This document shows, in pieces, positions 18,599-54,290 of a stretch of DNA of 64,000 nt. The stretch is from the NCBI GenBank assembly GCA_905221615.1, contig CAJNDT010001313.1, positions 186,001 to 250,000 on the forward strand, read 5' to 3'. The DNA comes from Symbiodinium sp. CCMP2592 (Eukaryota > Sar > Dinophyceae > Suessiales > Symbiodiniaceae). The position numbers and the translations under genes were made by a program. The notes under the pieces were generated by a model. The model made no database searches, was not told where the DNA came from, and saw only the letters and a program-made list of their open reading frames with translations. Position 1 is the first letter of the stretch. Each line of letters starts with the position of its first letter.

Positions 18599-18715
18599 AA
18601 GGGATCTGTAAAGAGTCTACAAGAGGGGTCTTAGGCTGACTTAAAGGATCGTGGGACTTAGTAACTAGGGTTCCTTAAAGGGCTCCTTAATGGAGATCTA
18701 CATGGATTCTATAGG

Positions 18716-18925
18716 CTCTACTTGGAGGTTCATGGGTAGTTATTCGTGGGTTATAAGAAGGGTAACTATAGTTATACCCATAGTCTCCAGTGCAGTTCCT
18801 TTTTTGGGTTACCTTATAGGATCCTAAGTGGTCTAACCCAAAAAAGGAACTACAATGGAGACTATTAGGCAACCATCAGTGGACTTATAACTCAGTTATA
18901 ACTACCCATGAAACTCCAAGTAGAG
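18716..18925. repeat. Palindromic element family F with nested family E
   Basis: Outer arms CTACTTGGAGGTTCATGGGTAG and CTACCCATGAAACTCCAAGTAG. At 18778-18869 a family E element (CATAGTCTCC...GGAGACTATTAGG) sits inside it. A lone F left arm occurs at 53002-53041. Confidence 0.85.
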
Positions 18926-19248
18926 CTGGTTAGGGTTTGAAGTTTAGGGTTTGTAGTGCTGCTTAGGATGCCGGGTTTAGGGATGCTTAGGGTTTAATTG
19001 TTTACAGCATACAGAAGTTTCGGGTTTAGGGCTGTTTAGGATGGATTTAGCGCTCAGGGCTTCGCAGGTGGGGTTTTGTGGTTTCGGGTTGCATGAGAGT
19101 TTAGCCTAAAGTCTGTCTATATCTATCTGTACCTGCTGATTTTTATTTGCTTGTCAATCGGCATGTTATTTTGCATCTAGGTTTCTGGACACAACAGCGC
19201 TTTGCCTCCCAGGGATAATGCCACAAAAGCAGCAGAATTGTAATGCAG
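18926..19248. other. TTTAGGG-like non-coding stretch
   Basis: Scattered GGGTTTAGGG words at about 18928-19090, then AT-rich sequence. No gene seen. Confidence 0.55.
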
Positions 19249-26418: not shown

Positions 26419-26479
26419 CCCAAAGTCGCCATTGTACTTCCCTTTTCTGGCTAACCAATTTTATGGTTAGGATCCTATG
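26419..26479. repeat. Left half of a family E palindromic element, cut by insertion
   Basis: CCCAAAGTCGCCATTGTACTTCCC...GGTTAGGATCCTATG follows the left arm and centre of the intact family E copy at 14521, then stops. The right arm is not adjacent; its match is 19.7 kb away at 46147-46180. The last six bases, CCTATG, recur at the start of that half. Confidence 0.75.
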
Positions 26480-26765
26480 CTCTAATTTGGTGTTACCGAT
26501 AAATCATAGCCCTCCATACGCATGCTGCTTCAAGCTGCCTACTGCTTCGATTCTGGGTGCTGCTTGGAATGTGTTAATCAGCTCTGCTATTGGGAGGAGT
26601 GTTGCATAGTCATCCTGATTGAGTGACTGTTAACTCAGCAGATCTGCAGGTTGAAAAGCAATGCTCAGGGTTCCACTACCAGTCAAAGACAGAGGGGACT
26701 AGCAGGATAATCTCCCAATGCAAGTAAACCCTCAATCTCATGTCGGACAGCAGGAAGGATTTCTT

Positions 26766-26979
26766 TCACTCGCGCTTCCTCTTGTTCGATGGCTTCATTG
26801 CTTCCATCACCCACCGGTGCACCATGAACCATGCCTGCAGCTGACTCCTCTGGCGGGCCACTTGCATTGCAATCGATGTCAAAGATTCATTCAGCTGATC
26901 GACCGGCAAAACGGGATTGTAAGATGCAGATGTAGAGGCCCTCAGCTGAGCAAGTTTATGCTCAAAACGGAATGGAAAG
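26766..26979 (-). CDS. Last exon: FPFRFEHKLAQLRAST ... NKRKRE stop
   Basis: Acceptor CTCTCAG; the frame reads FEHKLAQLRASTSASYNPVL then QLNESLTSIAMQVARQRSQL and WVMEAMKPSNKRKRE with TGA at 26766. The basic C-terminus could be a nuclear signal. No polyadenylation signal is evident in the 286 bp to the element end. Confidence 0.55.
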
Positions 26980-29900
26980 CTGAGAGAGAATGAAACATCA
27001 GGTAAGGACAAAAACCTGGTCTAATTGGGGCTCCCTCATTCAACAATCATGCACCGACTCTGCATCGAGGTTGCTTGTTGTCATGAGTCAAGCCCGCCGG
27101 CAGGCGAGCTTGAAAGTGCGGAAGCGTCTTTGTGCGATGCTGCACATGCGTCACCACGATCTCGGAAGGCATGGCAAACTTGTCCTTCAAGAACTGCGGG
27201 ATCGCCACAGCATTCGAGATGCTCCTTCTGCTTTCCCCCTCCTGCTCGGCATTCTCCGCTGGCGGAGCTGGTGGCTGCTCAACTTGGGCATTGTCCTGCA
27301 TGTGACAGGAATCAAAATCGGAGGAGGGAGTACCACGGTTTTTTGTGAATCTCCAGCTGGTTATGATGGCAAGGTGCAGCAATCAAATCCAACTGCCGAA
27401 ACAACACATCAACCCTTTCGGTTCCTTAGTGGCTGAAACCCAATGTGAACTGGAAGTGGGAGGTTCCAGGCGTTTGAGAACTGTGCAGAACTGTTTCAAG
27501 GAATGCTCCAGGGTGCATGGGGGTTGCAAAAGAAAGGCCTGGTCGTCAGGAGAAGCATTCTGCTCCATTTCTCGGACGGCGGCAGCTGCAGCCTTCATCA
27601 CTTCGTCGCCATCATCTGGCAGCATCTCCTGTTTGGGCATTGCCACATGAAGCACCGTTTCTACATTACAACACCTTGACAGCAATGTCGGTCCTCTTCT
27701 CCCTCTGCCTGCTCTTTGTCTTCCTCGTCAGCGTTGTCATCCGTTTTTCTCTTTCGCCTCTTCTCATCCATCATCTGCAGTGTGGCCAAGATCTCTGTGA
27801 TTCTCTCCTCGGGGATGGCCTCCTTCAACGACGGCTTGTCCATCAGTGCCTTGATCTTGGCACTCTTCGTGGCATTCTTGCGGCAGGAGATGTCCTCGAT
27901 CTTCAGCATCTTGGACAAGGAGTCGTTGGTGACTTTGAGGATCTCGCCGGTTAGGATCAAGTCCAACGAAAGGCTTCGACCTGCCACACCCCGCCGAAGG
28001 ATGCAGCAGCTCCCAATCTTCGTGGCAAGAGAGCCTTCCAACCAATGCGTGGTGTACTGGAAGACTTGAACCTGCAATCTCTTCCGATCATGCAGATGGG
28101 AATCTTCTAGAGGCAGACAAAAGAAATCTCACTAAATTAGCACCCAGCAATCCTTCTCGAAGTCAAGCAGAATCTCACGGATGAGCGGCCTTGCTGGTTA
28201 GGTGCAGATCGGTTACTGGAGGCAAGACTTGTCATTGTCTGCAAGCCTGACTGACTACCACTTGCTGCTAGGATGCTTCTTGGCAGCGAAGACGAGTGCT
28301 TTCACATGATCACCAGCATTCAGCGGATCATCGATCTTGAAGCTGTGCCCTTGGCCAGCCACGGCGGTTTCATCCACCGCTTCGGGCGGCAATGGGCCCG
28401 CAAAAAACATGTGAATCTCTGCCATCTGCAAAGCCTCACGTCTGGCACGAATGTTATGCTGACAAGGAATAAAAACAATTCACATTTTAGGTTTGCTTTC
28501 TTGAAGTAAAGTTGCGTAGAGCAGGCCGGGCGTGCTGCCGACCGCCAAGAGCCACTGGCCATCAACCAGCAAGAGGCGTCCTGGGGCAACCAGGTTGGGC
28601 ACCCACGTCTTGGATGCCATCTCCTCCATGCACACACCGTTCCTTCGGATGTGCCAGGCTCTATGATATGCTAGGACCAGTGTGCTCAACTCGAATGTTT
28701 TTCTATTAGAAGCAGCCGAGTGCATGCCGAGCATCTTCTTGCCCAGCAGAAAAGCTTGCATGAGATTGAGGTTCATTCTTGTGTGGGCATGAGCGGAGGT
28801 GCTGCCAAACTTCTTGAGGATGTCGTCAAGTCGGAAATGCGGACCTTTGGAAATCGCTGCTTGAAGTTGTAGTCGTACAGCGGTTGGCGTGCGTATGCTT
28901 AGGCTGCGAACCAGAATACGTCTACCGAAAAAACGCATCAACGGCGACCGTCGCATTGACATATTGTTTAGGGTCTTCTTTGCACGTACAGGAAATTTGT
29001 GCTTTATTATTAGTGTTCTGCCTGCCTCGTGCCTGGTCTAGACATAAACAGCCTGACATTGCTTAATGTGTCTCTTGCTCTCTCACATCTTGCTTCAGCG
29101 TCCTTGCTGAAGAAGCGTTATTTTCTCGTTCTCCTGGGGTTTCCTTGGTTGTTTTGCTTGCGTATTTCTGCTCGGGTTTTGCTCAAGCCTCTGCGGTTGT
29201 CTTTTTCCTCAGTGTAGTGTAGTGCCCAATGCCGTATTTTGCTTGTTCCTCTCTCTGCCCCTCTGCGTTTTCTATCTGCTGCGTTGGTGGCATCACATCT
29301 GCTACTTGGTTTGATTTGTTGAAGGGGTGTCTCTTTGCTCAATATGAACATTCCCTGTCCAGACTGTCTCTCTGAAAATGCATTGTGCTGTGTACGAGAT
29401 GGATCAGCCGAGGTGCTGTTGATGTAAGAATCAGCTCTCCAAACATTCGGCTTTATGGCCCTGATTTCGTTTCCCTCGAAATCTTCCGGAGAGAGACTGA
29501 TAGCTTCTGCGGTCTTCTCGCCTTGGCAGACTTTGTTGGCCACGGCACGAATGCCGAGGCACTGAACATTGGGCACACTGGAAGAGTTGGCTTTCGTGGC
29601 TCGCTTGATGCTGTCCTCCATGTGGTTGAAGCATTGCTCAACGTTGCAGGAACTGCCGAGGCGTGGGAACCAAGCCCTCAGGAGGGACTGCGTGGCGGAG
29701 TTGAGGACCCAGCCCTCTTTCTCAAAGACACTCATCACCTCTCTGTAGTACACGAACCGTGTGTGGGGGCAGGATGATCGCATGAGGTGATGAAGCTTCA
29801 GGCTGTTCTCAGCCTCGACCACCAAACTCCACTCCATCTGCATGGCCCGCAGGATAGCGTTCTTCACATCCTGCTCTGCAGAGCCTCCGTCACACTCTGC

Positions 29901-32900
29901 CAGCAAGGCGGCTGCTTGGTGGGGCGAGCTTTGAAGATAGACTTTGTACTGCCTAAGTTCCATCAAAGCAGAAAGCCCTGCGTGAATGTGATCGAAGAAG
30001 AGCTCCTCTTGCTCTGCTGATCGTCTCTTCTTCACCTGCAGCACCTCGGATGCTGTCCCACAGGCCTTAAGCTTTGTGGTCTCAGGCATTGCACTCCGGA
30101 AGGAGAAAACAAATAGAAGAAATGTGCCCTCCAACAAATCACAAAACTCGCTTAGATCTTACTATACTTGTTTCTCTTGAGAGTGTTTTGAAGCCGGGTC
30201 AGGGATGTGAGTCCTGGTGTCTGTAAACATAGCACTAGCCGACAAGATATCTACTGGCACAACATGCTTGCGGATTAGGCCGCGATTAAGACCCGTGCGG
30301 ATTTGCCGCCTATAACAAACTCCGGATTCTGTAAACAATTCCTTTTTTAATGGCTCAGCCAATTACGTGAGTATTACAAGTGAGCGGCTATGCCGCAGCA
30401 GACAGGCAGAAGAAAGTAAAGTCGCGGTTTAGCCGCGGCTGGGGTGTTGACAAAATTAGGCGAGCATTGCTGGGTGGGGCGTGGTTTTTAACAAGTTCCT
30501 AGCTGATGTCACGTCTTATTCGAACTTAGTGAATTTAAAAAACCCTTGGCTTTTACTCACAATGGCCAAATGAATGCTTAGATTCAACCCCCCTCTGAAT
30601 GATTGCTTCCCCTCCAGGATGCACGGTCTGGTCAGCACTTGGCAATATTTACTACAAAAAGTATATGCTAGTTGAGAATTGTTTACTTCAGACTTCACAT
30701 CCCTTAGAGTTACAACAGTTCAAATTGTGTTTACCACCTCACACCCTTGCCCTTGGAAACCGCCCTCTTCAACCATGCCTTGATGAATCTAATGAGTACT
30801 TTAAGCCTTCCCTGTAAGCACTGGTTGCTGAGTGCTGTACCCCAAGGGATGATCTACCCTTGCTTCCCCCCTGTTCCCAAGCAGACGAGCAGCTTTCACT
30901 TTGATTGGAGGTAGTATAGCCGTACAGTGTTTAGGGGTTTGTCAAGATTCTTGAAGTAATGGACTACACCCGCGGCTATTCCGCGACTAAGTTGCACAGT
31001 GAACAAAAGTCATCAGTGTAGGAAACAGATTTTCGACTCTATTATGACTATGCTTGATTAGCTTTGACTGCACACACATCTACCGCATATATTGCACTTG
31101 AAACGTGGACACCGAGCGGCAGTGCGACCCTCGCTGTCCTGGGCCGGCGCGAGATCCGAGGAGATGCCCAGGTTCTCAAGGGCCACTTCGCCAAAGGTGA
31201 CTCTCATGAGCCTGTCGTACTTCAGGTCGTACTGCGGGCCACACACGAACAGCGTCTGCTTCTGCAGAGCATCAAGCTGTTTGGAGTGCCGTTCCTGATC
31301 GTGCGAATATTGCAGCAACAGACACTACATGCACATACAGTTGGACGTTGCAGGACTGCAGCTTAGATACCAGCCAGAGACACGTGTCTGTGAACGGCTC
31401 CGACATGCACGAGACACTCTTGAACAGGGCGGCACAGGATTCATCCAGCAATGCCTCCATGCACCGTGGACCGGATAAGACATGCGTCAGAAACTGGGTC
31501 CTCTGGCCTTGAGGCACAAGTCGACAATCTTGTCGTACATACCCGTGGCCGTCTTTGTGCTCGGGGCTGCAGCCATTGCGTAGGGGTTCTTTCCTTCCTG
31601 AAGTGCAGAGTGCTAGAGGCCAAATTCCTTACTGCATGCAGCGAGCTTCTCTGCTGGGTTCCCTACCTCAAGACATGCCCACATCACCACCAAGAGCTGA
31701 GCAGAATAGTAGCATCGGAAGTTTTGACTGCAGAACCCCCAGCTGCACCATCTCCCTTGCTCGTAAATTGAACCTGTTCTCCTTGCAGGAACAGCAAACC
31801 GGAATGTCTGGGGATATGGACTGGGGCAAGGCAAGTCCTGCTCATCTTCTGCAGCACCTCTACCACTCGGGCAAAGTTCAAGTCTGCATCGTCCGAAGGC
31901 TTCCAGCCCTGCCTTTGTGTGCAATGATAATTTCACGAATGTTTTCTACCGATTCCAACTAAGATGCTCAGTGAAGCAAAGGCACTCGTGCAAGATGTGC
32001 TCGCTGAACATCTGCATGAGGACATCGTCCTTCTTAGCCTTGCGAAGCAGGTAGTAGTCAAATCACCACTAAACTCTTGCAACCACCACCACTGTCTTTC
32101 CGCGGATGCCACCACACAACAGACTAGTTAAGGAACAGCCGGGGTGCGATCTGCAGGTATCTCCTGCAGGCCTCCATCCATGTATTTCCCACCGCGTGTG
32201 TTGCCCAAGGCGATTTTTTGGCTTTCATCAGCCAGCTTGTGAGCATCTGCATGCCTTGGTGTCAACGTCGGCGCTTAGTCCTAAATCCGAAGCCTCGGCC
32301 CCCTTGCTGTCGGGACTCGCCGCACTCCAGGCGTGGCATGCAGAAAGCGGAGGAAGTGGGTCTGCAGCTTGTGCCTCAGCCACAAGATTTCATGTGGTTC
32401 TTACCAACGACACAGATTGCAGCTGCTGCCGGTTTTACTGCCTGCAAAGTGGCGTCTCGTCCCGGCAGAAACCGACCGGCAAGTCGAGAGAAGCCAGAAA
32501 CTGCCAGGCACAGAAGAGAGGTCCGCCCTCGTCCGGGTGGAGCGTTACCCGGACCCCCGAGTCCGCTTCGCTGCCGTCCTGGTCCGGCGAGCACACCCAC
32601 TCAGCGATGCCGGTGTCGTAGTTGAAGAGAAAAGCACGGTTGCCGTACATCTCCCGAGTCTGATGCTTTTCGGCATCTGGTGCCCGGTAAGAGACAGGAA
32701 GTGGAGCAAGTTCCAAGTCGAGAAGGTCCAAGCTGTGTAGCACAGCTCGCATGTGTTCTCTGCTCTCCTGCCTCAACCGACCAACGGCACGAGGCCTTGG
32801 TGTCAGAGCTGGCTTTGATACATACAGCAGACTTTGCGAAGAACCTGATGCTCCAAGCCGAGGCACATCTTGGTGGCGGCTGAAGCATCCTGTTGGAGCA

Positions 32901-35900
32901 TCTTGTCAGCCAGGGACTGCAGTTCCTCCTGTTTTTGGCCGCTGCTGGCAGTGACTGGCAGCAAGTCGGACAGTCTCTGGACTGTCCAAGCGATTGCATA
33001 GTGACCGATGCCTAAGATTGGCTGCCAAACCTAAGCTGATCTGAATCGAAACATACACTGGGAGACAGATTCCTGCGAGTTCGTACAGACAAGTTCAGTT
33101 GCCCAGCAGCATCCATGCGAGCTTTCGGGGAAGCATCGCACAGGAAAGCAATGCCTTTGACCGGCTGCTTGGCCAATTCCTCAATCTGCTCAACAACAAA
33201 AACTGATGTGCAGTGCGTAAGGACTGTTCCTAAGTCTTACCTGAACCACACGGGTGGCAAGAATCTTCGTGCACCACTGAGGCTGCCTTCCTCAGGTACC
33301 GGTAGCTGAAGTCACTCGACAGCCTCACCGGAAAGGCTTACGAATGTGTGGGTTAGTAGTGTGTTGCTAAATGCACTGCTTGCCTGTGCGGGTGGGTTGG
33401 GACGAACTCGCTCAGCCCCAAGTCTTTCAGGGTTCCGTCGTCGGAAGCCGTTGCAAAACCACTTTGTCTGGCCAGAAAGCGCTGCAGCGAAACGACGTGC
33501 TTTGGCTTTGCCTCTTTCTTTAAGGCGCGACCGTCCCTTGGCTTTTCTTCGAGCAAAACACACAGACACACAAACAATCCTTGTCATGAGCGAAGTGGCA
33601 CTTTGCAGGGGTGGAACTCGTCCTTGCTGCTCGGCATGGGCATTTCTGGGACCAGCCGCTGTTGCAGGTGTGCTTCTGCAAACTGAGCAAGCAAGTGCAG
33701 AAGCCGTGTCTGCAGCCGTCCGGAAGGAACTCTGCCCTGCAGTTGTCCCAGGACAGTCATTTCTCACGTTGAACGATGCTTTGGCTTTCAAAACAGAGGC
33801 CGGAACATCGCAACAGGGTTCTTTGAAACTCGGTCGCATGATGAAGCAGACGGCTGTCGACAGCCGCACACCTGTCGCATCTGCAAATGTTTCTACTCAA
33901 GCACACAGGCAGCATGTGGGCCTGCGTTGAAGTCCTGCTGGGCCGGCGAGGCAAGCTTGAACCTCTGCCACCTAGGCCAAGAAGCAATCTGACAAACCCC
34001 GGGAGGCTCTCAGTTGCAATTTCCGCTGCCTCGGTAGCCAGTCCACAAACTTGAGGAAGGTCTCCCAGGATGCTAGATCCACATCGTGGCCAACACACTT
34101 CAACTTGCCTTGTTCATTGCCACATTTCTTTCCACCGGCTGGGACAAGCAAGCTTCAAAGCACAGTCACAGACTTCCAGCCGAGCAGCAAGCCGCGACGT
34201 TGGGCAGAAGGTTCAGCTGCATGTCGGGCGGGCAGGCGCTGGCAAGCAGCGTCTCGAGGGATTTCTCTGCAGCTTTCTGCAGATCTTCTTTGCAAGAGCG
34301 AATCTGTAGAACACAGGTTGCCTTGGCATATCACAAAGCAGCAACCCGGGTTTTGGGGCACAGCAAGTACTCGTGAGAAACACAGCTTGCGAACCGCGTT
34401 GCTGCAAACAGACATCCAGGCAAGGTGAAAGCGTCGCAAGGAAGCTTCACTTTCTGGGACTGCACGTCTACCTGCCTGCCCTTGTACCCTAGCTTCCGGA
34501 TGATGTGCACATCCAGGTTTATTCGCCAAGCCATTGCAATCTCGCATGTCAAATTGTCCCGCCTGCCATATTGGTGGGCACAGCATGCACGTGGCGGGTT
34601 TGGGTTGCTTCACTGATGCAGACAAGGTGCAGCTTGGTGTACCAGTTTGTGAAAGCTTGCTTCCTCCGAAACAGTTTCCAGACTGTGCTTGCCCGGAAGT
34701 AGTGCTTGTAGCCCTCGGAGCTCACATCTCCCTCAGCCTGCGGGTGCTGGCCAGGAAACTGCCAACAGACACCAAGCAAGCAGATGCCAAGCACTCACTT
34801 CAAGTCCCTTTCCTGGCCTTGAGGACCTCAAAAACGCCGGCAGTCCCGGCTTGGGTCTGCAAGAAGAGTGTCTTCGTAGGCGTGTACTCCATCCGCTCCG
34901 TGGAGTCAGCTGCCGGAGGCTCCAAATCGGCGTCGTCCAAAGCCACAATCTGCTGTGGCTCCTCGGGAGCTACAGCAGTTGCGTGAAGTCGAGGCCTCAA
35001 AGGCAAGCCTGCAGACGCTGCCGCTTGACGGCAGTCATCCAGAAGTGCCTGGCCAGGGGAGGGTTGCAGAAAAACGATATCCAATGTAGGCAAAAGACTG
35101 ACCCGCCTCCCAGTCGGACATCACTATTTGCTTCTCTGCTGCTACCGGCAGATTCTGCAGACTCTTCCTATCCACAAAAGCAATCTTCTGGAGGAAGAGC
35201 TCTTTGGACTTGCGGATATCCGCATCTGTACTCAGCCTCACAGAGGTACGCAGGATGCAAAGACTGGGCTTTCTTTTTCACCCGAAGCAGCACGCTAAAG
35301 CGAAGCAGCACGTTGAACTGCAACTGAGGAGCTGCCGGTGCTCCTCCAGCTTCTTCTGGAGCCAGGGTCGCAGGTCCGCCTGCAAATGACAGTGCTGCTT
35401 GTGGTTTCGTGCACATCAGGGTGCCGCTTCGCGCGGCCAGAGTTCTGCTTGAGACCTGCTGCGTTGGCCACGTGCGCGCACGTGGCCGGTGTCGTAGTGT
35501 TGAAGCAGCACGCTAACCCTACTCGTCCATCCTGCTCGTTAAATGAGCAGGTTCCCAACCTGCTTAAAAATCACGCACGTTGCGCCAAAGCCTATTTTTA
35601 GGGTTCTTCAGCCGGGGCTCAATAAAGCTACAGAAGCAGCAGTGGCATTGCTCATTTTTCCCTTAGGGATTGTTTAGGGGCGGGCCAAGGAAGCTGAAGA
35701 AACAGCAATAGGACTGCTCATTTTTCATTTTTTCTTATGGGGGAGTTCACGGAAGCTGGAGAAACAGTTGACCTCCTGCTTCACTGCTGGCTTGGCTTCA
35801 TCCTTTTTTCTTGTCATCACCATTCTTCGGAGCTGCCTCCTCATAGGCAGTTCCTGCCAACACATAGATATCATTTATATTGTTGTACATTATAGCTCTA

Positions 35901-38900: not shown

Positions 38901-41900
38901 AGCCGCCATGTCCTTCAGATCCTGCTCCGCTTCCTGCAAGCAGAGATGATAGGAAAAGAATGCTCAGGCAAACAGTGCTCGCAGTTGCAGTAAGTCTTGC
39001 CGGCAAAGAACTAAGAGCCCACCTTTTTTTCTCAAGTGCTGCCAGAGCGGAGTGCTAAAGAGGCCATCTGATCAAAACAGGCCTTGTCCATCCGCGCTTT
39101 ACACGTGTAAAGCACATGTCACAAAACGGATTGCTCACCAATCCTGCTGGTCGTAGTAGTCACCATCCTGCCAGTCCAAGTTGCGATCCTGGCGGTGCTG
39201 TGCTCCGCCCCGGGCTCGCTTGCAGCCATACTGCATCTTCTCGATGGCCCTTTTGCTTACATGCCTCAGAAATCACAGTAGACACCGAGGGACAAAGCTC
39301 CGGCTAAGGCCTGAGTGACACCAGCTAGCACCTAACTGGGAAGCAATGCAGTCAAAGAGCTTCCTCGGTGGGGTCTGCGGGGCAGAGCTCTGGGAGGCCT
39401 CGGGCTGCTCCGGAACGTTGCCGTCCTTGTTGGAGTCGGCCACCTCCTCACACTTCTCCAGCACCTCGGAGTCGTTGACCTTCACCGGCTCCTGAGGCAA
39501 CGGATTGCGGGCAGCCGTTGACTCAGAGGTCACTGCAGCAGGCACCGGCTCCAAGGTGACTTCAGGTGCCGGTGCTGACGGAGTGAACCTGGCGTAAATC
39601 TCCAGAGTTCCGCCCAGCACTGGAAGGGTGCCCACCCGCTTAGGACGAGTCTTCTCTACCTTGGGCCTGGCAGGAAGCTCCTGGTCCACAGCCTCAGAAG
39701 CCTGAGAAGAGGCTGGGGCCTCTGGCTTCACCTTTGCCGCCGAGTTGTACTTCGGTTTCGGAGCCAGGACCTTGTTCTGCACTTTGGAAGCAGCAGGCTT
39801 CGGATTCGAAGCCTCACCCACACCGGAAGGAGCCCCACCATCACCCTTCTCGTCACGAAGCAGATCCGCAAGGTCCTCCTCTGGCGGGTGTGCTGCTGCG
39901 ACCTTCTGGGCTGACTCACGTTTCCTGTCCTGCTCCAGCTCGTGCTGCTCCCTCAGCTGTCTGAGAAGATCAGCTCTGAAAGCCTCCGTGAACTGCATAG
40001 GCATCGTTGCCGGAGGAACCGGCATAGGCAGAGGCGGTGGAACAGGGTTAGGGAGAGGTGGCGGGGGAAGCAACTAAGGGTTGGCGGACCATTGGTTGAA
40101 CATGCCACCGACCAAACAGGCTTCAGGAGCCCTCCGGGGTCAACAAAAGCACTCGAGCAAGAAAGATCACAGAAACAAAAGATATCAAGCAGGAGCACCA
40201 GCTGAGGCTGCAACACTCCGACATGTGGGCATGCAGACATGGACTGCATCAACCCCTCGGCCCGCCTCGTCAGGTTTTCTCTCGATGTTTGCAGAGACTC
40301 AGACATCACAAAACTGCGCTCCGTGCGGCGTCCAAAAACACCGAGCACAGAAGCTGGAGCTCAGCTGCCAGAAGCAGACACGGAACGTTGGCACTGAAAG
40401 GCTTGCTGTGAGGTCTAAAGCGCTCCGTCACAAGATTATTTCGCTCAGGAAGTTGCTTGCATGAGCCGTTCATTAAGCAACTGCATGCCAGTCTGCCTCA
40501 GAAATTCCGCCCTCGGCCCTTTGAGCCCTGCTTCCAAGCAACATGGCACTGGGCACAGCTATGATGATGGGCATCAAAACCATTCTCATCATAGCACAAG
40601 GTGCTGCGACTGCACCAGTTACCAGCATTGCAGCGTCTGCAGATCGCCTTGACCTGTTGGCGACTGCGATGAAACTGAGCCTCCCTCCGTTCAAGCTGGG
40701 CTTCCTTGGCTGTCAGCCGTTCCTCTCTCTGAAGTAGCAGCCGCTCACGTTCAAACAGGAGCTTCTCCTTCTCAAAGAGCTCCCTCTCCTTGGGGTGAAT
40801 CTCTTTGTCCAGCATGTCCTTCACCTTTCCCATGATCTGCTCCGTTACAGTCTCTGCATCTCCCAGGGCAGGATGCTGCTGCGAGGCGGAAGCCATGGTT
40901 TGGAAAGACGAAGGAAGAGGGCTCTGCAAAGGATCTCAAGAGGAAACACTGCAGAAAATAGCAGCTGAAATGGAGTTGCTGTCACAAACCTCTCTGCAAC
41001 GACTGACAGACAGCAGCAGAAGTAAAAGTACACCCTGCACTTCTCGGTCCTCTCCAAGCTTGGCCAAAAGCTTGTCGTACTTGTCGTTGAGGTCTGAACT
41101 GCTAAGCCCGTTGAGCCTGCAGAGTTGCAGAGCAGCAGGGTTCAGCAAAACGTGAGGCGAACTTTGCTGGCAATGTGCAACCAGGCCTTTTGTACTTCTT
41201 CATCATGCTCTTGAGCAGGGTGGATACATCATCCAGTGTCTTGCACGTGGATATGCTGACTTGCGATGGGGACTTCCCAGTAACTCGGTTCATCAGAGAT
41301 AGGAACAAAGGCATGCAAGACACATGACAGGCCAGCAGTTGCCGGGAAAGCCAAGGCACAGAGGCCCAGAATCTGACTCAACCTCTTTCTCCAGAGGACT
41401 TGGGCGGTTTTCACCTGCACAAGCACCGGAATTTGTTACGGCACGGGCAGCCTGCTGCCCGGCAGAATGCAAAGATGAAGGTCATCAGGAAACACCCTCC
41501 CCCTTCACTCCGGAAATAAAAGACCTGCCTTGCGAAGGGAGGCGTTTTCCGCCTGCTTGTCCTTCTGCTTCTTCGATCTCTTGAGCGAGTCGGTGAGCAA
41601 GGACTCCTCAGAGGTGGTTTCCCATAGCCCTCGGGCCCTAGGACATCTGCCTAAGCTGTCTAGCAGCCAAACAGAGACTTGTAAACAGCAACCCTCTTCA
41701 TGCACTCTGCAGTCAGTCAAACCAAGGCACACTCTCGCCCCCCACCTGCAAAATGTCGGAGGCCACCACATACTTTGTCAGTCCAGACAAAGTGTATGCG
41801 AACTGCTGGCAGCTGAGGTCCTCCAGCTTCGTCTGGTCGAGGGACCTCGCAAGTTCTTTGTTGAGCAGGCGGAAGAGGCCCTGCTTGTCCTCCGTAGCCT

Positions 41901-44900
41901 CCTCGCTGTCCGCATCAGAGCTCTCGTCCGACTCAGAGGAACGGCCTGCATTGGCACGGATACAGCAAAAGTTGTTGCAACAATCCTGGCAAAAAGACCC
42001 AATCCAGAACTGAACATGCTCCCGTTCTCAAATCACAGAAGCACGGTCCTTTCTTGCTGGACTTCTCCTTCTTCTTTTTCTCTTTCTTCTCACTCTTGCC
42101 AAGCTTGCCGGATCCTGCACAGATGCACATCGGGTCCCTGGCTCTGCCATGCTCGGCCTAAACCGGACTAGAGAAACTGCAGCAGGAGGCAGGCCTGTTA
42201 GGGCCTTCTCCAACTCTTGGTGGGCCGTGTTCATCAAGAACCGATGGGCATTCGGAGGGCTCGAGGAATCGGCCCCCGTCTCCGAGGCCAACGATCGTGT
42301 GCTCTGGGTCCTGGACAATCATAAGGAAAATCAAAGCTAAAATTGCAGAAGACTATATAGGGAATAAGGATTACTGGGCACATATATCTAGTCTAGCCTC
42401 GCATTCTGCTACTGTTTCGGCGGCTAATCCGCCAAGTCGCGGGCTATCCGCGATTTCGCAGCAGTCGCGTTCTATCCGCAACTTTCCTACATTACCGACT
42501 CTGATACAGATGCCTAAGTCGCGAGCTATCCGCAGGTCTTCTACTAACTGTACTGTCAATCGCGGCTATTCCGCAATTCGCCGCGCTATTCCAAGAATTC
42601 GCGGCTAGTCCGCGACTGGCGGCTAGTCCGCGAAACTCGCAGATAGCCTGCTCATCCTATGGCTTCGCGGCTAGTCCGCAATTCCGCCAGTTAATGAGTT
42701 ACTGCGGTATAGCTACAGATCTCAAATGAGCTTGAAGCCCTAAACCCATCATCCTACTGCCATTCAAAATAATCGCTTACATTGGCCACACACTAGATCG
42801 CGGCTAGTCCGCAATTCGCAGCTCATCCAATAATTCGCGGCTAGTCCGCGATTCGCGGCTATTCCGCAAGACTCGCAGTTACCATCCTCTTCCTGTGGCT
42901 TGGCAGCTAGTCTGCAAGTCCAGTACTAAAGGCGATACTCAAGAATAGCTACACGTGTCCAATGAGCTAGAAATCCTAAGGCCATCATCCTACTGCAATT
43001 CAAAACAATCACTTACAGTATCCATCTACAAAGGTAAATAAAGCTTCTGACCAGCCTTAACATGACAATTCCTCCCAGAGTGTCCTCCTCACCTTGCCAG
43101 CCACCATGACAACGAGGAAAGGGGCTGCCCACTCCCCAAAAAAACCAAGGAGCTGCTGGCATGGGCAATCTCCAAGGCACTCTGCCAAAGAAACAGACTT
43201 GCAATGACCTCCCTCAGCACTGCCCACTCTGCAAATCAACTGGCATCCTGCAACCCAAGCCTTACCTCGCCCTCCGGGCAGTCAAGCTGTTAAGTACTAG
43301 CACATATTCCGAAATCAGGACATCGATCAATGGATGAAGACAACCAGACAGTCTGGAGAGCAGTGACAGAAAGGCCGAGGAGGCATGGAACTGTGACCTT
43401 TTGATCATCATCCGGGTTAGTCCAAGAGGCTTGTGCCTTTCATGCACAAATTTGATGATAACTAAGACTAGTCGCTCGGCCACCATCTGGTTTAATTACC
43501 AATTGAGCATCTCCGCACAAACGCAACCACGATGAGCAGCTTCAGCCGTGGCAAAGAGCCTTGCCTCAGCAGCTGAGGGGTGCTTTGTATCAACACATCG
43601 GTAAAGCAAAGACACCGGAGCCAAAGCTGAAGTGCCGTCCATGCTGCAACGAAGCACTGCCCCAGAAAATGAAGCCAATGAGAATATCTCGGCCTCAGGC
43701 AAACATTCGGCAAAGCAATGAAGCAGTGCACAATTTTTCGCAAAGACTGAATTTGCCGCCGGAACGGCAGCCACAAGCAAAGCTTTGTTGTTGTTCCAGA
43801 GCTAGAGAGATGGAAACCGAATTTTGCACCACCAAAAGAACGAGGTGATACATGAATCACATAGACTCAGAGCAAGCAAGTGCACAAAGTTCAAAGCCAG
43901 AAGCCATGTATCGTTTGAACTGCTAGTGTGCAGACAGGATAGGGGATGTATTGCGATTGCAGCACAGGCACGTCTAGAGCACTTCCCAGACCTCCCCGTC
44001 ATGGATCACGACCGGTGGGGCCAAGGCATCGTTGCCAGCAGCAAGCCGGCCGCAAGGGCAACGAATCAAACGAGCCTCTGAAACAGAAGAACAAGCGCAT
44101 CAGAATAATTCAGGCTGGGCCACTTCTTTTACAACAGGGCCTAAGCCAGACTGATGCTACCGATACAAACCCAACAATCAGACTTGAGGCAGGCAGCAGG
44201 GATGTCTGGCACCATCAGTCTGCGTCTGCGAAACACGGGTAGGAGGTCCACACAATCATCATTGCCTTCAAACCGATGATCGTTGTCCTTGATGCAAACA
44301 CAAAATAATGACAATCGGGCAACAGACCGAATCATGGCATGAACCATGCAAGCCTCTACTTGCATCGGGCCGGCCTCGTGCACCAAGGTCGTCAAGACGG
44401 TGTCCAATCGTTCGCCCAAGGAAGCACGAAGTTGGAACACGGGAACAGAGTGTCGGAGCGAGAGCAACAAAGCCACCTCGGTGAAACACAATATAGAGTG
44501 TAATTCTTCAGAAACCCTGTGGAATCGCAGAAGCTAAAGCCATCGAGGCTCGGCACGACCGAACGTGTGCGGATATGCCTGCGAGGCTGGCATAGACCCA
44601 CGTTTGCCCCGATAGCCACCGCCAGGGGTGCGATGGCAGAGCCTCTCTGTGGCACGGGACAGAAACCTCAGAAGCATTTCGAATAAACAGGCATGCACAA
44701 GACCTCTACTCCAGGTGAACAATCCGAATTTGCGGGGAAGCATCGCTCGCTCCAGCTCAGGATGAGTTCCAAGGAATCGGAGGCAAGTCAAAAGGAAAAC
44801 ATCCGACCCGATGAGCTGTGTCGGCTTCCTCGGCAAGTCAACAAAGTAGGAAATCGCAGCGGATGCGAGCAGGAACAAATAACAATCAAATAGCAGTCCA

Positions 44901-45925
44901 GCAGCGGTGTGGGAGCTCCGAAAGCACCCATGTTGAAGGTTATGCGAAGGTGACCACACTGGTGAAAAACATCCTGCAATGGACAATGCATAGAAGCATG
45001 AAAGGCATCCGCTTCACTGGCGTCTGCAACTGCTCATTACATGCAGGTCCCGCATTGCCCTGAGCTGCGGCATGTAAGATGCCAGGGGCTGCTCGTAGAT
45101 GCAGAAGATTCTTGCATGCAAGCAAAAGAGCTGGCAATGGCTGTCAAACTCCTAGGCTGCGGAGTTTACAGCAAAGAAGGAAAGCATTTGCCACACTCCA
45201 AAACACTCGTGCAAACACCCAGCATTGCAACCGAGCTGCAGCAATCTCGTTGCCTTCAGCAACAGCTGGCAGTGCCAAGTTTCCCGAAGGATCGAGGTGC
45301 CTCTCCCTTGGCAACTGCACACACCCTTTCGCTTTACGAACCTCTGGCAGGAAACCGCTGCCCCACAAAGACATTTTCTTTAGGTGAGTTTCGTGCTTCC
45401 GACTGCGCAATTAAGAAAGCTGCTGCACTTCGGCGCTGAAAATCGCACACCACCCTGCTTGACGGCTGCCAAAAGCCGTAAGCCTCACGAGATGTGAAAT
45501 GAGTTACCTGCCTGAAAAATCTGCTGCCCGACTCACACTGCACAAAGGCAACACAGCCCATCAAAGCCAGGACACAAAGGATCTTGCCCCTGTGGCTTAA
45601 GACATTCTGCATGGGGTCTCGGGCGATGTCATACACAGCCACCATGAACCCGGCCTGAGATTCGTGTGTGCAACAGCCAACAATACTGAGACAACTTGCT
45701 GTCCAGTTCTAATGAACACAAGGACAATGTCCAGAACACTTCTGATTGTGCCAAAGGAACTTCCTGAACGGCATTCGATAGCCTTGCCCGACCGGCGAAG
45801 CACTCGAAAAAATCCACATAGCGAAGCGGCGAGCCCTCGGCCATGTACTCAGCACTGAACACCTGTGGTGCTGCCTCGTCCAGCAGCTCGCAGAAAGAAG
45901 CCGGCAGTGCCGAACGGTCGACCAT
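26766..45925 (-). CDS. Multi-exon gene of a dinoflagellate-type family: methyltransferase-like N-terminus, coiled coil, Cys/His cluster, SAP-like C-terminus
   Basis: Spans about 30 exons; the best are listed separately. Order of parts: N-terminal motif FFECFAGRARLS (like motif I of SAM-dependent methyltransferases), a YEQP segment, a GAFGAPTP segment, Lys-rich and acidic linkers, a Glu/Arg coiled coil, a Cys/His cluster, a Pro-rich region, conserved helical modules, a module with CNVEQCFN resembling the xSNxxExFN signature region of some transposases, then a SAP-like helical region and a C-terminal NKRKRE. Donors are GT, GC and at least one GA (27694). From recollection, similar predicted proteins recur in Symbiodiniaceae genomes; this is unverified. 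Frame conflicts at about 38790, 34560 and 31512 suggest decay, sequence error or mis-set exons. The function is unknown. Being the only gene in the block, it is the candidate for the mobility protein. Confidence 0.6.
27090..27295 (-). CDS. Exon: DNAQVEQPPAPPAENAEQEG segment (3' end approximate)
   Basis: Acceptor CTGCAG in phase 0; Pro/Glu-rich start, then ISNAVAIPQFLKDKFAMPSE and IVVTHVQHRTKTLPHFQ. The donor is unresolved. Confidence 0.5.
27440..27628 (-). CDS. Exon: EMLPDDGDEVMKAAAAAVRE segment
   Basis: Acceptor AAACAG, 63 codons in phase 0 (then MEQNASPDDQAFLLQPPCTL to LEPPTSSSHW), donor GTTTCAG. Confidence 0.6.
27694..28071 (-). CDS. Exon: SAP-like helical region, GA donor
   Basis: Acceptor TTGCAG, 126 codons: VQVFQYTTHWLEGSLATKIG, then a helical block (GEILKVTNDSLSKMLKIEDI, CRKNATKSAKIKALM) resembling the two-helix SAP/Rho-N fold, then EERITEILATLQMMDEKRRK and an acidic tail ending EQAEGEE. 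A GT donor at 27674 breaks the frame, while GAG|GACCGA gives phase 0 into the next exon, so a GA-AG intron is favoured; such introns are known in dinoflagellates. Confidence 0.6.
28144..28189 (-). CDS. Micro-exon: PLIREILLDFEKDCW
   Basis: 46 nt. Acceptor GCAAG; its first G completes the Trp codon begun by the previous exon's TG, then 15 codons to donor GTGCTAAT in phase 0, matching the next exon's phase. The three-way phase agreement supports the gene model. Confidence 0.65.
28259..28441 (-). CDS. Exon: REALQMAEIHMFFAGPLPPE segment
   Basis: Acceptor GCCAG; 1 + 182 nt reading REALQMAEIHMFFAGPLPPE then AVDETAVAGQGHSFKIDDPL and HVKALVFAAKKHPSSK; donor GTAGTCAG. It joins the next exon in phase through a split Trp codon. 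Confidence 0.6.
28495..28930 (-). CDS. Exon region: KGPHFRLDDILKKFGSTSAH ... LVAPGRLLLVDGQWLLAVGS
   Basis: One minus-strand frame contains ISKGPHFRLDDILKKFGSTS then NLNLMQAFLLGKKMLGMHSA, and later VPNLVAPGRLLLVDGQWLLA. The middle (NRKTFELSTLVLAYH) may be an intron read through. Start and end approximate. Confidence 0.45.
29320..30100 (-). CDS. Long exon: SAEQEELFFDHIHAGLSALM ... LGSSCNVEQCFNHMEDSIKR module
   Basis: After CCGGAG the frame runs about 250 codons: MPETTKLKACGTASEVLQVK, a helical region, FVYYREVMSVFEKEGWVLNS, then LRAWFPRLGSSCNVEQCFNH and MEDSIKRATKANSS. The GSSCNVEQCFN...R-x-x-K pattern resembles the SN-x-x-E-x-FN segment near the end of Mutator-type DDE transposases. I see no DDE triad, so the resemblance may be superficial. 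The 3' limit is approximate, before Ser/Thr-rich sequence. Confidence 0.5.
30101..31083. other. Intron-like stretch with hairpin repeats
   Basis: AT-richer sequence with copies of the GCGGCTATGCCGC / CGCGGTTTAGCCGCG / CGCGGCTATTCCGCG hairpin at about 30393, 30422 and 30971. No exon identified. Confidence 0.5.
31084..31324 (-). CDS. Exon: SKQLDALQKQTLFVCGPQYD segment
   Basis: Acceptor ATGTAG, phase 0: CLLLQYSHDQERHSKQLDAL then QKQTLFVCGPQYDLKYDRLM and GEVALENLGISSDLAPAQDS, ending CPRFKCNIC with three Cys; donor GTAGATG. Confidence 0.5.
31362..31590 (-). CDS. Exon with frameshift: MYDKIVDLCLKARG ... FLTHVLSGPRCME
   Basis: The first part reads STKTATGMYDKIVDLCLKAR; the continuation FLTHVLSGPRCMEALLDESC then FKSVSCMSEPFTDTCLWLVS is in another frame beginning about 31512. 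No room for an intron, so a one-base change is the simplest reading. Either this copy is degenerating or the assembly has an error. Confidence 0.45.
31787..31895 (-). CDS. Possible exon: DLNFARVVEVLQKMSRTCLA segment
   Basis: One frame gives DLNFARVVEVLQKMSRTCLA then PVHIPRHSGLLFLQ; another longer frame is also open. Boundaries unresolved. Confidence 0.35.
31950..32041 (-). CDS. Exon: AKKDDVLMQMFSEHILHECL segment
   Basis: After CGCAAG; the frame reads AKKDDVLMQMFSEHILHECL then CFTEHLSWN; donor GTAGAAA. Confidence 0.45.
32237..32366 (-). CDS. Exon: AEAQAADPLPPLSACHAWSA segment (ends approximate)
   Basis: Frame AEAQAADPLPPLSACHAWSA then ASPDSKGAEASDLGLSADVD up to CSQAG. Low-complexity linker composition. 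Confidence 0.4.
32442..32767 (-). CDS. Exon: MYGNRAFLFNYDTGIAEWVC segment
   Basis: Acceptor GAGGCAG, phase 0, about 108 codons: ESREHMRAVLHSLDLLDLEL then PLPVSYRAPDAEKHQTREMY and AEWVCSPDQDGSEADSGVRV to a GC donor. FNYDTGIAEWV has a beta-strand-like, WW-reminiscent character but is not a WW domain. Confidence 0.55.
32833..33011 (-). CDS. Exon: IGHYAIAWTVQRLSDLLPVT segment
   Basis: Acceptor TCTTAG; the frame reads IGHYAIAWTVQRLSDLLPVT then ASSGQKQEELQSLADKMLQQ and LGLEHQVLRK; donor GTCTGC, phase 0. Strong helical composition; the longer open frames on the same strand are shadows. Confidence 0.55.
33073..33185 (-). CDS. Exon: IEELAKQPVKGIAFLCDASP segment
   Basis: Acceptor GAGCAG; the frame reads IEELAKQPVKGIAFLCDASP then KARMDAAGQLNLSVRTR; the donor is likely GA at 33072. 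Confidence 0.5.
33241..33305 (-). CDS. Exon: YRYLRKAASVVHEDSCHPCG
   Basis: Acceptor CTTCAG, donor GTAAGAC, a 65-nt exon encoding YRYLRKAASVVHEDSCHPCG. Consensus-like splice sites on both sides. Confidence 0.55.
33384..33546 (-). CDS. Exon: EKPRDGRALKKEAKPKHVVS segment (5' end approximate)
   Basis: Basic segment EKPRDGRALKKEAKPKHVVS then LQRFLARQSGFATASDDGTL and LGLSEFVPTHPHRQ, up to a GC donor at 33383. Competing frames on both strands are open here. Confidence 0.45.
33998..34103 (-). CDS. Exon: LKCVGHDVDLASWETFLKFV segment
   Basis: Acceptor AGGCAAG; the frame reads LKCVGHDVDLASWETFLKFV then DWLPRQRKLQLRASR; donor GTTTGTC. Confidence 0.5.
34174..34303 (-). CDS. Exon: IRSCKEDLQKAAEKSLETLL segment
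   Basis: Acceptor TTCTACAG, phase 0, IRSCKEDLQKAAEKSLETLL then ASACPPDMQLNLLPNVAACC; donor GTCTGTG. A clear helical segment. Confidence 0.55.
34400..34550 (-). CDS. Exon-like: IAMAWRINLDVHIIRKLGYK segment, frame-shifted relative to previous
   Basis: Frame TCEIAMAWRINLDVHIIRKL then GYKGRQVDVQSQKVKLPCDA and FTLPGCLFAATRFAS. It lies only 12 bp downstream of the preceding frame's end. Either a very short intron, a frameshift, or a wrong frame choice. Confidence 0.4.
34563..34737 (-). CDS. Exon: EGYKHYFRASTVWKLFRRKQ segment
   Basis: Acceptor CCGCAG; the frame reads AEGDVSSEGYKHYFRASTVW then KLFRRKQAFTNWYTKLHLVC and HVHAVPTNMAG; GC donor possible at 34562. The following coding-like sequence is in a different frame. 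Confidence 0.5.
34808..35048 (-). CDS. Exon: ALLDDCRQAAASAGLPLRPR segment
   Basis: Acceptor GGCCAG, phase 0, about 80 codons reading through EEPQQIVALDDADLEPP and ERMEYTPTKTLFLQTQAG to KARKG. The donor is unclear. Confidence 0.5.
35104..35236 (-). CDS. Exon: DADIRKSKELFLQKIAFVDR segment
   Basis: Acceptor GTGAG; the frame reads LSTDADIRKSKELFLQKIAF then VDRKSLQNLPVAAEKQIVMS and DWEAG; donor GTCAGTC. Amphipathic helical composition; the frame is clear. Confidence 0.5.
35297..35416 (-). CDS. Possible exon: TKPQAALSFAGGPATLAPEE segment
   Basis: Ala/Pro-rich frame ending before an acceptor-rich stretch. Composition fits, boundaries do not resolve; a competing frame is open. Low confidence. Confidence 0.3.
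36238..36352 (+). repeat. Short repeat cluster, AGAGTCACGCT type
   Basis: About eight copies of A(G)AGTCACGCT within 115 bp, interrupted by GGCTGGTCTCTTATTTATAA. Part of the intron described above. Confidence 0.8.
37065..37290. repeat. Cluster of GAAGCAGCACGCTGAAGCG words
   Basis: Four or more copies of (C)GAAGCAGMACGCTRAA, also found at about 35284-35320 and 35500, and near the right end of the element at about 46082-46096. Because of the subterminal copies it may mark the element ends. Confidence 0.7.
37793..37907 (-). CDS. Exon: MPMEDRSWFCLFRGRSQF segment (ends approximate)
   Basis: After CAAAG the frame reads DSSRGVDASGSLCFCMPMED then RSWFCLFRGRSQFLWQG. Plausible but short; moderate-low confidence. 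Confidence 0.35.
37942..38117 (-). CDS. Exon: ELLESLGEKARLCAKKL segment (3' end approximate)
   Basis: Acceptor ATGCAG; the frame reads ELLESLGEKARLCAKKLTLK then ARRAVLQWPKKLKDS and a hydrophobic VALLVFVLDLGE, with a stop at 37933. The donor is uncertain (possibly GA at 37941). Confidence 0.5.
38162..38320 (-). CDS. Exon: SDFMQQSLRTDADHCLDLLL
   Basis: Acceptor CTGCAG, 53 codons in phase 0, donor GTAATG. Continues CEDITSLSDATELLSDLPAG then QKCFMSYLASFSR. Clean boundaries and helical composition. Confidence 0.6.
38373..38933 (-). CDS. Exon: acidic/basic low-complexity region with internal frame conflict
   Basis: Acceptor TTGCAG, donor GTATGTC, 561 nt. The first part is protein-like in frame 0 (EAEQDLKDMAAAKPRKPATT through RRKLKNREL); from about 38790 another frame becomes the good one (KRSLDLDELEDDDPQDDNDL and on to FEPELLKLLLDG). 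Both frames are open over the whole exon, so a single-base indel, sequencing error or missed short intron is likely. Confidence 0.5.
39139..39249 (-). CDS. Exon: KMQYGCKRARGG segment
   Basis: Acceptor CAAAAG; the frame reads AIEKMQYGCKRARGGAQHRQ then DRNLDWQDGDYYDQQDW; donor GTGAGC. The phase of the join to the previous exon is unresolved, but the frame is the only sensible one. Confidence 0.5.
39332..40073 (-). CDS. Exon: Pro-rich start and long charged low-complexity region
   Basis: Acceptor CCTTAG, then LLPPPPLPNPVPPPLPMPVP, a short coiled segment (FRADLLRQLREQHELEQDRK) and about 180 residues of Ala/Pro/Glu/Lys-rich linker ending KLFDCIASQL. Donor GTGCTAGC. Low complexity, probably disordered; the plus-strand frames over it are shadows. 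Confidence 0.55.
40501..40923 (-). CDS. Exon: coiled coil plus Cys/His cluster
   Basis: Acceptor TTTGCAG, 141 codons. After MASASQQHPALGDAETVTEQ comes a long Glu/Arg coiled coil (KERELFEKEKLLFERERLLL onward), then a Cys/His cluster: C-R-R-C, C and C in CNAGNWCSRSTLC, HHH, C-A-Q-C-H, ending KGRGRNF. The spacing suggests zinc binding but matches no standard finger I can name. The frame meets a stop at 40498, so a donor must lie just before it, or the gene is split here. Confidence 0.55.
41034..41116 (-). CDS. Exon: LNGLSSSDLNDKYDKLL segment
   Basis: Acceptor TCTGCAG; the frame reads LNGLSSSDLNDKYDKLLAKL then GEDREVQ; donor GTGTAC. The join to the next exon at 40923 would continue in phase if the donor is placed after CAG (41035). 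Confidence 0.5.
41165..41285 (-). CDS. Exon: SPSQVSISTCKTLDDV segment (ends approximate)
   Basis: Frame KSPSQVSISTCKTLDDVSTL then LKSMMKKYKRPG, helical and basic. Splice sites are not fixed. Confidence 0.4.
41345..41414 (-). CDS. Exon: ENRPSPLEKEVESDSG segment (3' end approximate)
   Basis: Acceptor GTGCAG, then ENRPSPLEKEVESDSGPLCL in one frame. The competing frame (VKTAQVLWRKRL) is also open, so the frame choice is moderate at best. Confidence 0.35.
41529..41628 (-). CDS. Exon: charged segment (5' end approximate)
   Basis: Frame LWETTSEESLLTDSLKRSKK followed by QKDKQAENASLRK up to a GC donor (GCAGGT). The start is placed at the first codon that looks coding; the acceptor was not resolved. 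Confidence 0.45.
41746..41945 (-). CDS. Exon: acidic stretch and conserved helical block
   Basis: Acceptor CTGCAG; 200 nt with two leading bases and 66 codons: RSSESDESSDADSEEATEDK, then a helical block with LFRLLNKELARSLDQTKLED and FAYTLSGLTKYVVASDILQ; donor GTGGGG. Boundaries are clear and the frame is unambiguous. Confidence 0.65.
42045..42114 (-). CDS. Exon: Lys-rich linker (3' end approximate)
   Basis: Acceptor TGCAG, then SGKLGKSEKKEKKKKEKSSKK. To match the phase of the next exon (41945), the donor would be a GA or GC site shortly after KK. A nuclear-localisation-like basic stretch. Confidence 0.5.
42178..42303 (-). CDS. Exon: Ser/Ala-rich segment
   Basis: Acceptor CCAG at 42304, 42 codons in one frame (STRSLASETGADSSSPPNAH then RFLMNTAHQELEKALTGLPPAA), donor GTTTCTC. 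Other frames across it carry stops or odd composition. Confidence 0.5.
42415..42920. repeat. Cluster of 17-nt hairpin repeats, TCGCGGCTAGTCCGCGA type
   Basis: At least eight full or near-full copies (for example at about 42560, 42600, 42615, 42665, 42798, 42836 and 42857) with arms TCGCGG/CCGCGA around CTAGT or CTATT, plus degenerate ones. Related copies occur at about 30393, 30421 and 30970. All lie in introns of the minus-strand gene and none outside the 19.7-kb block. Confidence 0.85.
43000..44533 (-). other. Intron-like stretch of the minus-strand gene
   Basis: No exon here that I can fix. Minus-strand frames at 43496-43860 and 44141-44491 are long, but I found no convincing boundaries or conserved block. 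Part of this may still be coding. Confidence 0.4.
44534..44815 (-). CDS. Exon 6 region (ends approximate)
   Basis: From an acceptor-like ACACAG the frame runs open through FLGTHPELERAMLPRKF and on to GGYRGKRGSMPASQAYPHTF before a stop at 44534. The AYP-x-x-F-G ending is expected from the family as I remember it. It may hide a further intron between the two blocks. Confidence 0.5.
   Translation of the reverse strand, partial: LIGSDVFLLTCLRFLGTHPELERAMLPRKFGLFTWSRGLVHACLFEMLLRFLSRATERLCHRTPGGGYRGKRGSMPASQAYPHTFGRAEPRWL
44884..44973 (-). CDS. Exon 5 with GAFGAPTP motif (3' end uncertain)
   Basis: Acceptor TTGCAG, phase 0, DVFHQCGHLRITFNMGAFGA then PTP. The donor is not certain: a GT after 44884 keeps phase 0, but the last residues are unlike the conserved block, so the exon may end nearer 44905. 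Confidence 0.6.
45041..45130 (-). CDS. Exon 4 with YEQP motif
   Basis: Acceptor GCCAG, 30 codons in phase 0: LFCLHARIFCIYEQPLASYM then PQLRAMRDLH, donor GTAATG. The hydrophobic strand followed by EQP is the most recognisable conserved block after motif I. Both boundaries and phase agree with exons 3 and 5. Confidence 0.7.
45219..45314 (-). CDS. Exon 3
   Basis: Acceptor GTGCAG, 32 codons in phase 0 (LPRERHLDPSGNLALPAVAE then GNEIAAARLQCW), donor GTGTTTGC. The GN...EGN-E-x-AAAR pattern corresponds, from memory, to the segment preceding the EQP motif in related dinoflagellate proteins. Confidence 0.6.
45508..45654 (-). CDS. Exon 2
   Basis: Starts after TCTCAG in phase 0 and encodes AGFMVAVYDIARDPMQNVLS followed by a HRGKILCVLALMGCV stretch and CESGSRFFRQ. 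The VYDI segment fits methyltransferase motif II (acidic residue at the strand end). The 49 codons end in phase 0 at GTAACTC. Confidence 0.7.
45761..45925 (-). CDS. Exon 1: start codon and FAG methyltransferase-like motif
   Basis: 55 codons from ATG at 45925. The translation begins MVDRSALPASFCELLDEAAP and reaches YVDFFECFAGRARLSNAVQE, where D-FFECFAG-x-R-LS corresponds to the glycine-rich SAM-binding motif I of Rossmann methyltransferases. It ends in phase 0 at a GT donor (GTTCCTTTGG), and the join to exon 2 (AGFMVAVYD) gives the expected next strand with an acidic end. Confidence 0.75.
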
Positions 45926-46146
45926 TGCTTTGACTAAGCCAACTAAATCGCCAAATTATGTGAACACATCACCCGCTAGGTCTGAAGATCTCATGTTGCC
46001 TGATCTTTCCCAACTGCAAGGCAAAAGCCTGAAGCCATAGGGCCGCACGATCACGAGCACCTTCTAATATGGAACTGATAACCAACATCCGAAGCAGAAC
46101 GCTGAACGGTACAAGCACGGTACCCCAAGCAGAATGGCAATGGAAA

Positions 46147-46180
46147 CCTATGAATAAAAGGAGCCACAACGGAGACTGTT
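46147..46180. repeat. Right half of the interrupted family E element
   Basis: CCTATGAATAAAAGGA then GCCACAACGGAGACTG is the right arm of family E. The GAATAAAAG part is the inverse of CTTTTATTC in the arm at 52028-52036, and the CGGAGAC end pairs with GTCGCC of the left half at 26424. Confidence 0.7.
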
Positions 46181-54058: not shown

Positions 54059-54277
54059 TGCAAGTGCACAGGCCACTTGGTTCTTCCTGCTCATGTCTGG
54101 CATGCAGAACGCAGCGCAGGCACGTATCACAGCTTTTCGGATCAGAATCATAGAAGGGAACAGCGGAAAATAGCGCCGTTCGACCGCGCCATTCAATCTG
54201 CCTGTAACCTGCGATTCGTTGTGTCCGCTCACTGCTTGGGAACAGAAGCTACCACATCAGAGCTGCCATCACTTGCA
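54059..54277 (+). repeat. 5' LTR
   Basis: 219 bp with terminal inverted 8-mers TGCAAGTG/CACTTGCA and the retroviral TG...CA ends. I see no mismatch to the 3' LTR. No obvious TATA box; dinoflagellate promoters usually lack one. Confidence 0.95.
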
Positions 54278-54290
54278 TGGTAGCGGAGCC
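54278..54290 (+). other. Primer binding site, initiator-Met tRNA-like
   Basis: TGGTAGCGGAGCC begins directly after the 5' LTR. It is complementary to a tRNA 3' end of CTCCGCTACCA type, close to eukaryotic initiator Met tRNA, the usual copia primer. Confidence 0.8.

Follow-up and report, generated by a model that had tools for sequence, protein, structure and literature searches.

Positions 26504 to 46153 of the window (the whole 64,000-nucleotide stretch of Symbiodinium sp. CCMP2592 DNA analyzed here) are probably a DNA transposon of an undescribed lineage, with its own gene product as the putative transposase. The block is one of four copies, 99.0 to 99.6% identical, that lie on four contigs (C1313, of which the window is 186001 to 250000, C228, C5242, and C480) in unrelated flanks; compared with one another, the copies have common ends, and each has a 5-bp target duplication of its own. 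The original prediction had called the block apparently mobile, and these dispersed, near-identical copies confirm it. It had also held that the element fits no known class. This stands for the protein, which matched nothing known here, and falls for the termini, since DNA transposons are characterized by inverted ends together with target duplications of fixed length. The features are as follows:

26419 to 26503, plus strand: target, first part of a family E hairpin, including one ATAAA
26499 to 26503, plus strand: target site duplication ATAAA, left
26504 to 46153, no strand assigned: transposon, with ends common to the four copies
26504 to 26530, plus strand: left terminal inverted repeat, TCATAGCCCTCCATACGCATGCTGCTT, on the 3' side of the gene
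27047 to 45925, minus strand: single gene, modeled with 46 exons that give 7,785 coding nucleotides and 2,594 residues
29397 to 30092, minus strand: most conserved long exon, whose translation has 99 genome matches
35514 to 37065, no strand assigned: 1,552-bp stretch inside an intron, absent from the other three copies
46127 to 46153, minus strand: right terminal inverted repeat, which reads TCATAGGTTTCCATTGCCATTCTGCTT on that strand, on the 5' side of the gene
46154 to 46158, plus strand: target site duplication ATAAA, right
46159 to 46177, plus strand: target, rest of the same family E hairpin

Ends, copies, and insertion site

Homology with the copies on C228, C5242, and C480 spans the window from 26499-26504 to 46153-46158, and beyond the element boundaries only short, simple-repeat-like matches were listed (E ≤ 1e-10, ≥60 bp). 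A query of the genome with the left end as originally proposed gave three further matches, which begin 19 to 24 bases inside that end. The common ends of the copies thus show that the breaks first placed at 26479/26480 and 46146/46147 were wrong; the true ones are 26503/26504, 24 bases rightward, and 46153/46154, 7 bases rightward. In all four copies the termini read TCATAGCCC... and ...AACCTATGA (pattern TCATAG...CTATGA), and 20 of 27 positions agree between one end and the reverse complement of the other, which makes an imperfect 27-bp inverted repeat. The statement that there are no clear terminal inverted repeats was therefore mistaken: the inverted-repeat test at the earlier ends is not significant (0.059) because those ends were misplaced. 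When the shared terminal positions were used as a pattern against the 1.098-Gb assembly (5,383 contigs), all eight matches were the two ends of the four elements, and the same pattern run backwards as a control gave none.

Each copy is bounded by a perfect 5-bp duplication private to it, namely, ATAAA in the window, TTAAA on C228, ATAAT on C5242, and TTTAT on C480, and the sixth base is mismatched in the four copies checked. The CCTATG previously read as a junction duplication has two separate sources: on the left it is family E sequence, as in the E copy at 52 kb, which likewise reads GGATCCTATG, and on the right it belongs to CCTATGA, the terminus of the element. The window copy is 19,650 bp long, and the other three are 18,114, 18,036, and 18,743 bp. 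The C480 copy carries 628 bp (after window position 29038) that the other copies do not have, and the C5242 copy is without 38 bp and 35 bp that the others have. Exon 29445-30093 matched the genome in four places at 100% (rounded) and in one at 81%. All four copies have kept their introns, so that movement via spliced RNA is excluded. The first and last kilobases of the block share no LTR-like pair (one 18-bp match), and no reverse transcriptase was detected; the description of a very large, spliced element lacking both is thus supported.

The original prediction, with an intact hairpin at 14521-14621 for comparison, inferred the insertion from a family E hairpin interrupted by a block whose repeats differ and which carries one many-exon, minus-strand gene, and this picture holds. 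Deleting 26504 to 46153 together with one ATAAA restores the hairpin. The corrected empty-site join scores 51.1 and 39.7 bits against the E profile on the two strands; the left part alone scores 32.7 and 17.4 bits, and the join as originally drawn scores 49.2 and 20.9 bits. On the minus strand, the score of the DNA right of 26479 was reached by 2 of 1,000 random replacement pieces from the block and 20 of 1,000 from the flanks, and on the plus strand by 840 and 863 of 1,000, respectively. In pairwise tests of 26477 to 26536, fractions of 0.51, 0.10, 0.03, and 0.79 of 5,000 random pieces were at least as good. The E similarity past the claimed left junction in fact showed that this junction was misplaced; at the claimed right junction there was no E extension (668 and 858 of 1,000 random pieces reach the score). 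By itself, the right E piece gives 5.5 bits in the profile search (E = 0.58); in pairwise comparison, none of 5,000 random pieces was as good in three of four comparisons and 2.2% were in the fourth.

An earlier leaning toward a conserved host gene lying between unrelated E fragments was overturned by the genome copies. It had been based on the few protein-database homologues, the second E copy with GGATCCTATG, the E similarity beyond the left junction, and the frequent E arms in the flanks.

A search of Rfam gave no match. Several other features of the window were recorded. The family E hairpin at 18777 to 18868 sits in the loop of another hairpin (arms 18715 to 18757 and 18884 to 18926), and 18715 to 18926 is a set of nested insertions of short hairpin repeats. 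A tandem array at 17904 to 18597 comprises 16.5 copies of a 42-bp unit with 100% matches (TRF) and is open in several frames. The young Ty1/copia element at 54059 to 62532 (RVT_2 in its pol frame by Pfam) gives a picture of a true insertion in the window: its LTRs of ∼220 bp have one mismatch in 223 aligned columns, at the end of the match, and it is flanked by a 5-bp duplication, GGGTT, inside a TTTAGGG array. Within the copia pol frame, 58444 to 59079 resembles, on visual inspection, a 2-oxoglutarate/iron dioxygenase (residues of the HxD ... H ... R type); searches of Pfam and of the sequences of solved structures gave this stretch no support.

The four copies differ from each other to about the same extent. 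Their six pairs have 75 to 88 differing positions over ∼18.0 to 18.1 kb (0.42 to 0.49%), with no pair clearly closer, a pattern like that left by a recent burst of copies of a single source. Coding sequence accounts for 23 to 34 of these differences (∼7,750 sites) and non-coding sequence for 52 to 55 (∼10,300 sites). The ratios of non-synonymous to synonymous rates relative to the window copy are 0.56, 0.32, and 0.89, on few changes. When the exons predicted in the window are applied to the other three copies, these show frame changes or a stop, which may reflect either decay or error in an exon model that was fitted to the window copy.

The gene and its diverged relatives

The gene was drawn with a simple minus-strand exon model and then guided by three database proteins, P0001, P0002, and P0003. 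The model agrees with the original view of one spliced gene nearly filling the block; its final exon is uncertain (26766 is the end in an earlier model), and exons 40676-40878 and 39337-39960 were placed by coding statistics alone. The donors are GT in 23 cases, GC in 17, and GA in 5. According to PMC5177918, the genes of Symbiodinium microadriaticum average 21.8 exons and 12,898 bp and use GC, GT, and GA donors; by these figures such splicing is normal in the group, and a 46-exon gene is at the large end for it.

P0001, a 2,104-residue protein of S. microadriaticum found by protein search and named ASAH1, aligns over residues 1 to 1944 as a series of exons with the window from 45844 to 27089. 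Its tail (about residue 1947 onward) matches acid ceramidase and a related amidase and nothing in the window; the name was apparently taken over from a fused neighboring acid-ceramidase-like gene. Prokaryote contigs held no relative of P0001. P0002 and P0003, both from Symbiodinium sp. CCMP2592 and both named hemA, cover most of the remaining gene and are presumably models of the homologous gene on C2223. The public names ASAH1 and hemA are attached to proteins that look like products of this transposon family.

Pfam scans of six stop-to-stop pieces of the gene, P0001, and three spliced pieces (931 residues together) found no reverse transcriptase, and they lent no support to the methyltransferase-like N terminus or the SAP-like C terminus that had been read from the sequence. 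Pfam likewise revealed no transposase domain in these sequences or in the members sharing the conserved exon, and sequence and profile searches of solved structures gave no transposase match. Two structure predictions had mean pLDDT values of 38 and 39, too low in confidence to be used. Among hAT models, there was no hit at E ≤ 1 for eight shared-exon members and none at E ≤ 10 for the three spliced pieces. The shared exon holds a conserved S-x-N-x-E-x-x-F run in the alignment of the eight sequences, which we take to recall the last catalytic region of hAT-like enzymes; a very remote kinship with hAT is possible.

A diverged fifth element lies at C2223:2091478-2109982 (18,505 bp). It starts with TCATAGGCCCCCATTGCCATGATGCTT, finishes with ...CTACGGGGCCCTATGA, and has TTGTA on both sides, so that perfect 5-bp duplications are found in five of five elements. 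In the 1-kb flanks of the five, the sole match (E ≤ 1e-10) consisted of overlapping 74 to 75% stretches between one C2223 flank and one C228 flank. The C2223 gene is homologous to the window gene and lies between the same kind of ends, which indicates that gene and ends diverged together. Over 1,824 filtered codons, the two genes show 72% amino-acid identity, dS of 1.07, dN of 0.20, and dN/dS of 0.19, the last biased downwards because the local-identity codon filter keeps conserved stretches. A looser terminal pattern that fits both families gave 11 matches (backwards control, 0); ten of them are the ends of the five elements, and one is an unpaired site. This eleventh match, G000:C2813:422121-422147, has no partner end in the match list and is perhaps a truncated or diverged element.

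The translated exon at 29397 to 30092 extends the family further, with 99 matches (E ≤ 0.001) among 114 candidates; five have 77 to 100% identity and 94 have 26 to 42%, and a few are pieces of one place. Thirty loci that were cut out formed 10 groups at 90% nucleotide identity, two of them singles and eight with 2 to 7 members, and an alignment of eight shared-exon sequences (the window family and seven relatives) has 33 invariant columns. Our guess is that these wider relatives may be transposons of the same kind. In one family of relatives, what looked like a shared end proved to be an N gap and was discarded.

Origin of the element and comparison with known systems

Fixed-length target duplications arise when a transposase or integrase transfers strands at staggered positions. 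The element travels as a DNA unit, introns included, and makes 5-bp duplications of mostly AT sequence; in the window, the target is the family E hairpin. The encoded protein would be the transposase, since its gene is the only one recognized and is common to a diverged family with the same kind of ends; it would insert these ends into the target at a stagger of 5 bp. Movement would be by cut-and-paste, and the catalytic core may be too diverged for the sequence searches used.

A transposase coded elsewhere could instead act on the ends, with the large gene a captured host cargo. We consider this unlikely. It would account for the lack of a detected transposase domain and for the annotation of P0001 beside an acid-ceramidase-like stretch, as a host gene could be, and the protein database holds just one S. 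microadriaticum cluster and one CCMP2592 locus (two models). Against it, the C2223 element carries this gene at the corresponding position between ends of the same kind, the gene occupies almost the whole element, and the 99 matches of its exon, with their near-identical groups, are not what a single captured host gene would give. A large integrating DNA virus, or a virus-derived, Polinton-like element, reduced to one gene would match in its size of 18 to 20 kb and in the 5- to 6-bp target duplications of Polintons. This origin is very improbable given the 45 introns and the short inverted ends; moreover, P0001 has no relative in viral contigs, and Pfam scans of the gene pieces and P0001 found no polymerase, integrase, capsid, or other viral core gene.

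A host gene duplicated as a segment through recombination, with no transposon involved, is suggested by the long, intron-rich gene and by there being only four copies. In our view, the base-exact common ends, inverted repeats, and private 5-bp duplications refute it, and the diverged family shows the same pattern; we judge it extremely improbable. That two independent family E fragments flank an ordinary gene by chance, a possibility already raised in the original prediction, is practically negligible. In its favor, CCTATG can be explained from family E, and the flanks contain many E arms, of which a lone one at 53 kb is roughly as good a complement to the left half as the arm at 46 kb. The idea is refuted by the common ends and target duplications of four copies, and the correct join rebuilds E on both strands.

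A DNA transposon thus being the preferred reading, we compared the element with known systems. To our knowledge, its TCATAG ends do not fit the usual hAT end. Transib elements make 5-bp duplications and prefer GC-rich targets, and CACTA elements make duplications of 2 to 3 bp; the element shares the 5-bp length with Transib and differs from it in its mostly AT targets, it differs from CACTA/EnSpm in the length of its duplication, and Pfam gave no match to either. Polinton/Maverick elements are 15 to 20 kb long with a 5- to 6-bp duplication, whereas our scans found no protein-primed DNA polymerase, retroviral-type integrase, or capsid, and the inverted ends here are only ∼27 bp. The hallmarks of LTR, LINE, and DIRS retrotransposons are not seen, as no reverse transcriptase was detected in the pieces scanned, there is no LTR pair, and introns are kept. 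Inverted ends and a 5-bp duplication are shared with hAT5, for which PMC12730594 gives 5 bp, a length that also occurs in unrelated families; unlike hAT, the element has no Pfam hAT match and carries one ∼46-exon gene over some 19 kb. It resembles Kyakuja-Dileera-Zisupton elements, large cut-and-paste elements of eukaryotes with long proteins, but these have duplications of 7 to 8 bp according to the same source (compared with 5 bp here), and Pfam gave no match. That source puts the EnSpm duplication at 3 bp, and PMC4158355 states that CACTA genes can carry many introns. Symbiodinium LINE and DIRS retrotransposons with reverse transcriptase and intronless DNA methyltransferases are reported in PMC5890265; they come from the same host group, but our element has introns and inverted ends and no detected reverse transcriptase. 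Judged by titles and the beginnings of abstracts, none of the papers listed from the open-licence literature describes such an element. We conclude that the element is of a known kind, a DNA transposon, by its ends and duplication, and that no superfamily was found to fit.

It is an evenly poised judgment whether these elements, seen to date in Symbiodinium, form a eukaryotic DNA transposon superfamily of their own, characterized by a length of 18 to 20 kb, TCATAG ends, 5-bp mostly AT duplications, a novel ∼46-exon transposase, and dozens of low-copy families, with some annotated dinoflagellate "host genes" encoding its proteins. Since it multiplies intact although its gene has ∼45 introns, such a transposon must be mobilized as DNA and must rely on the splicing of its host, with the GC and GA donors that these algae commonly use. 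It would be one source of the dispersed, intron-rich gene families in dinoflagellate genomes. The findings also suggest that the public records under the names ASAH1 and hemA describe members of a transposon family, and they point to a protein family in which an unrecognized transposase may be found.
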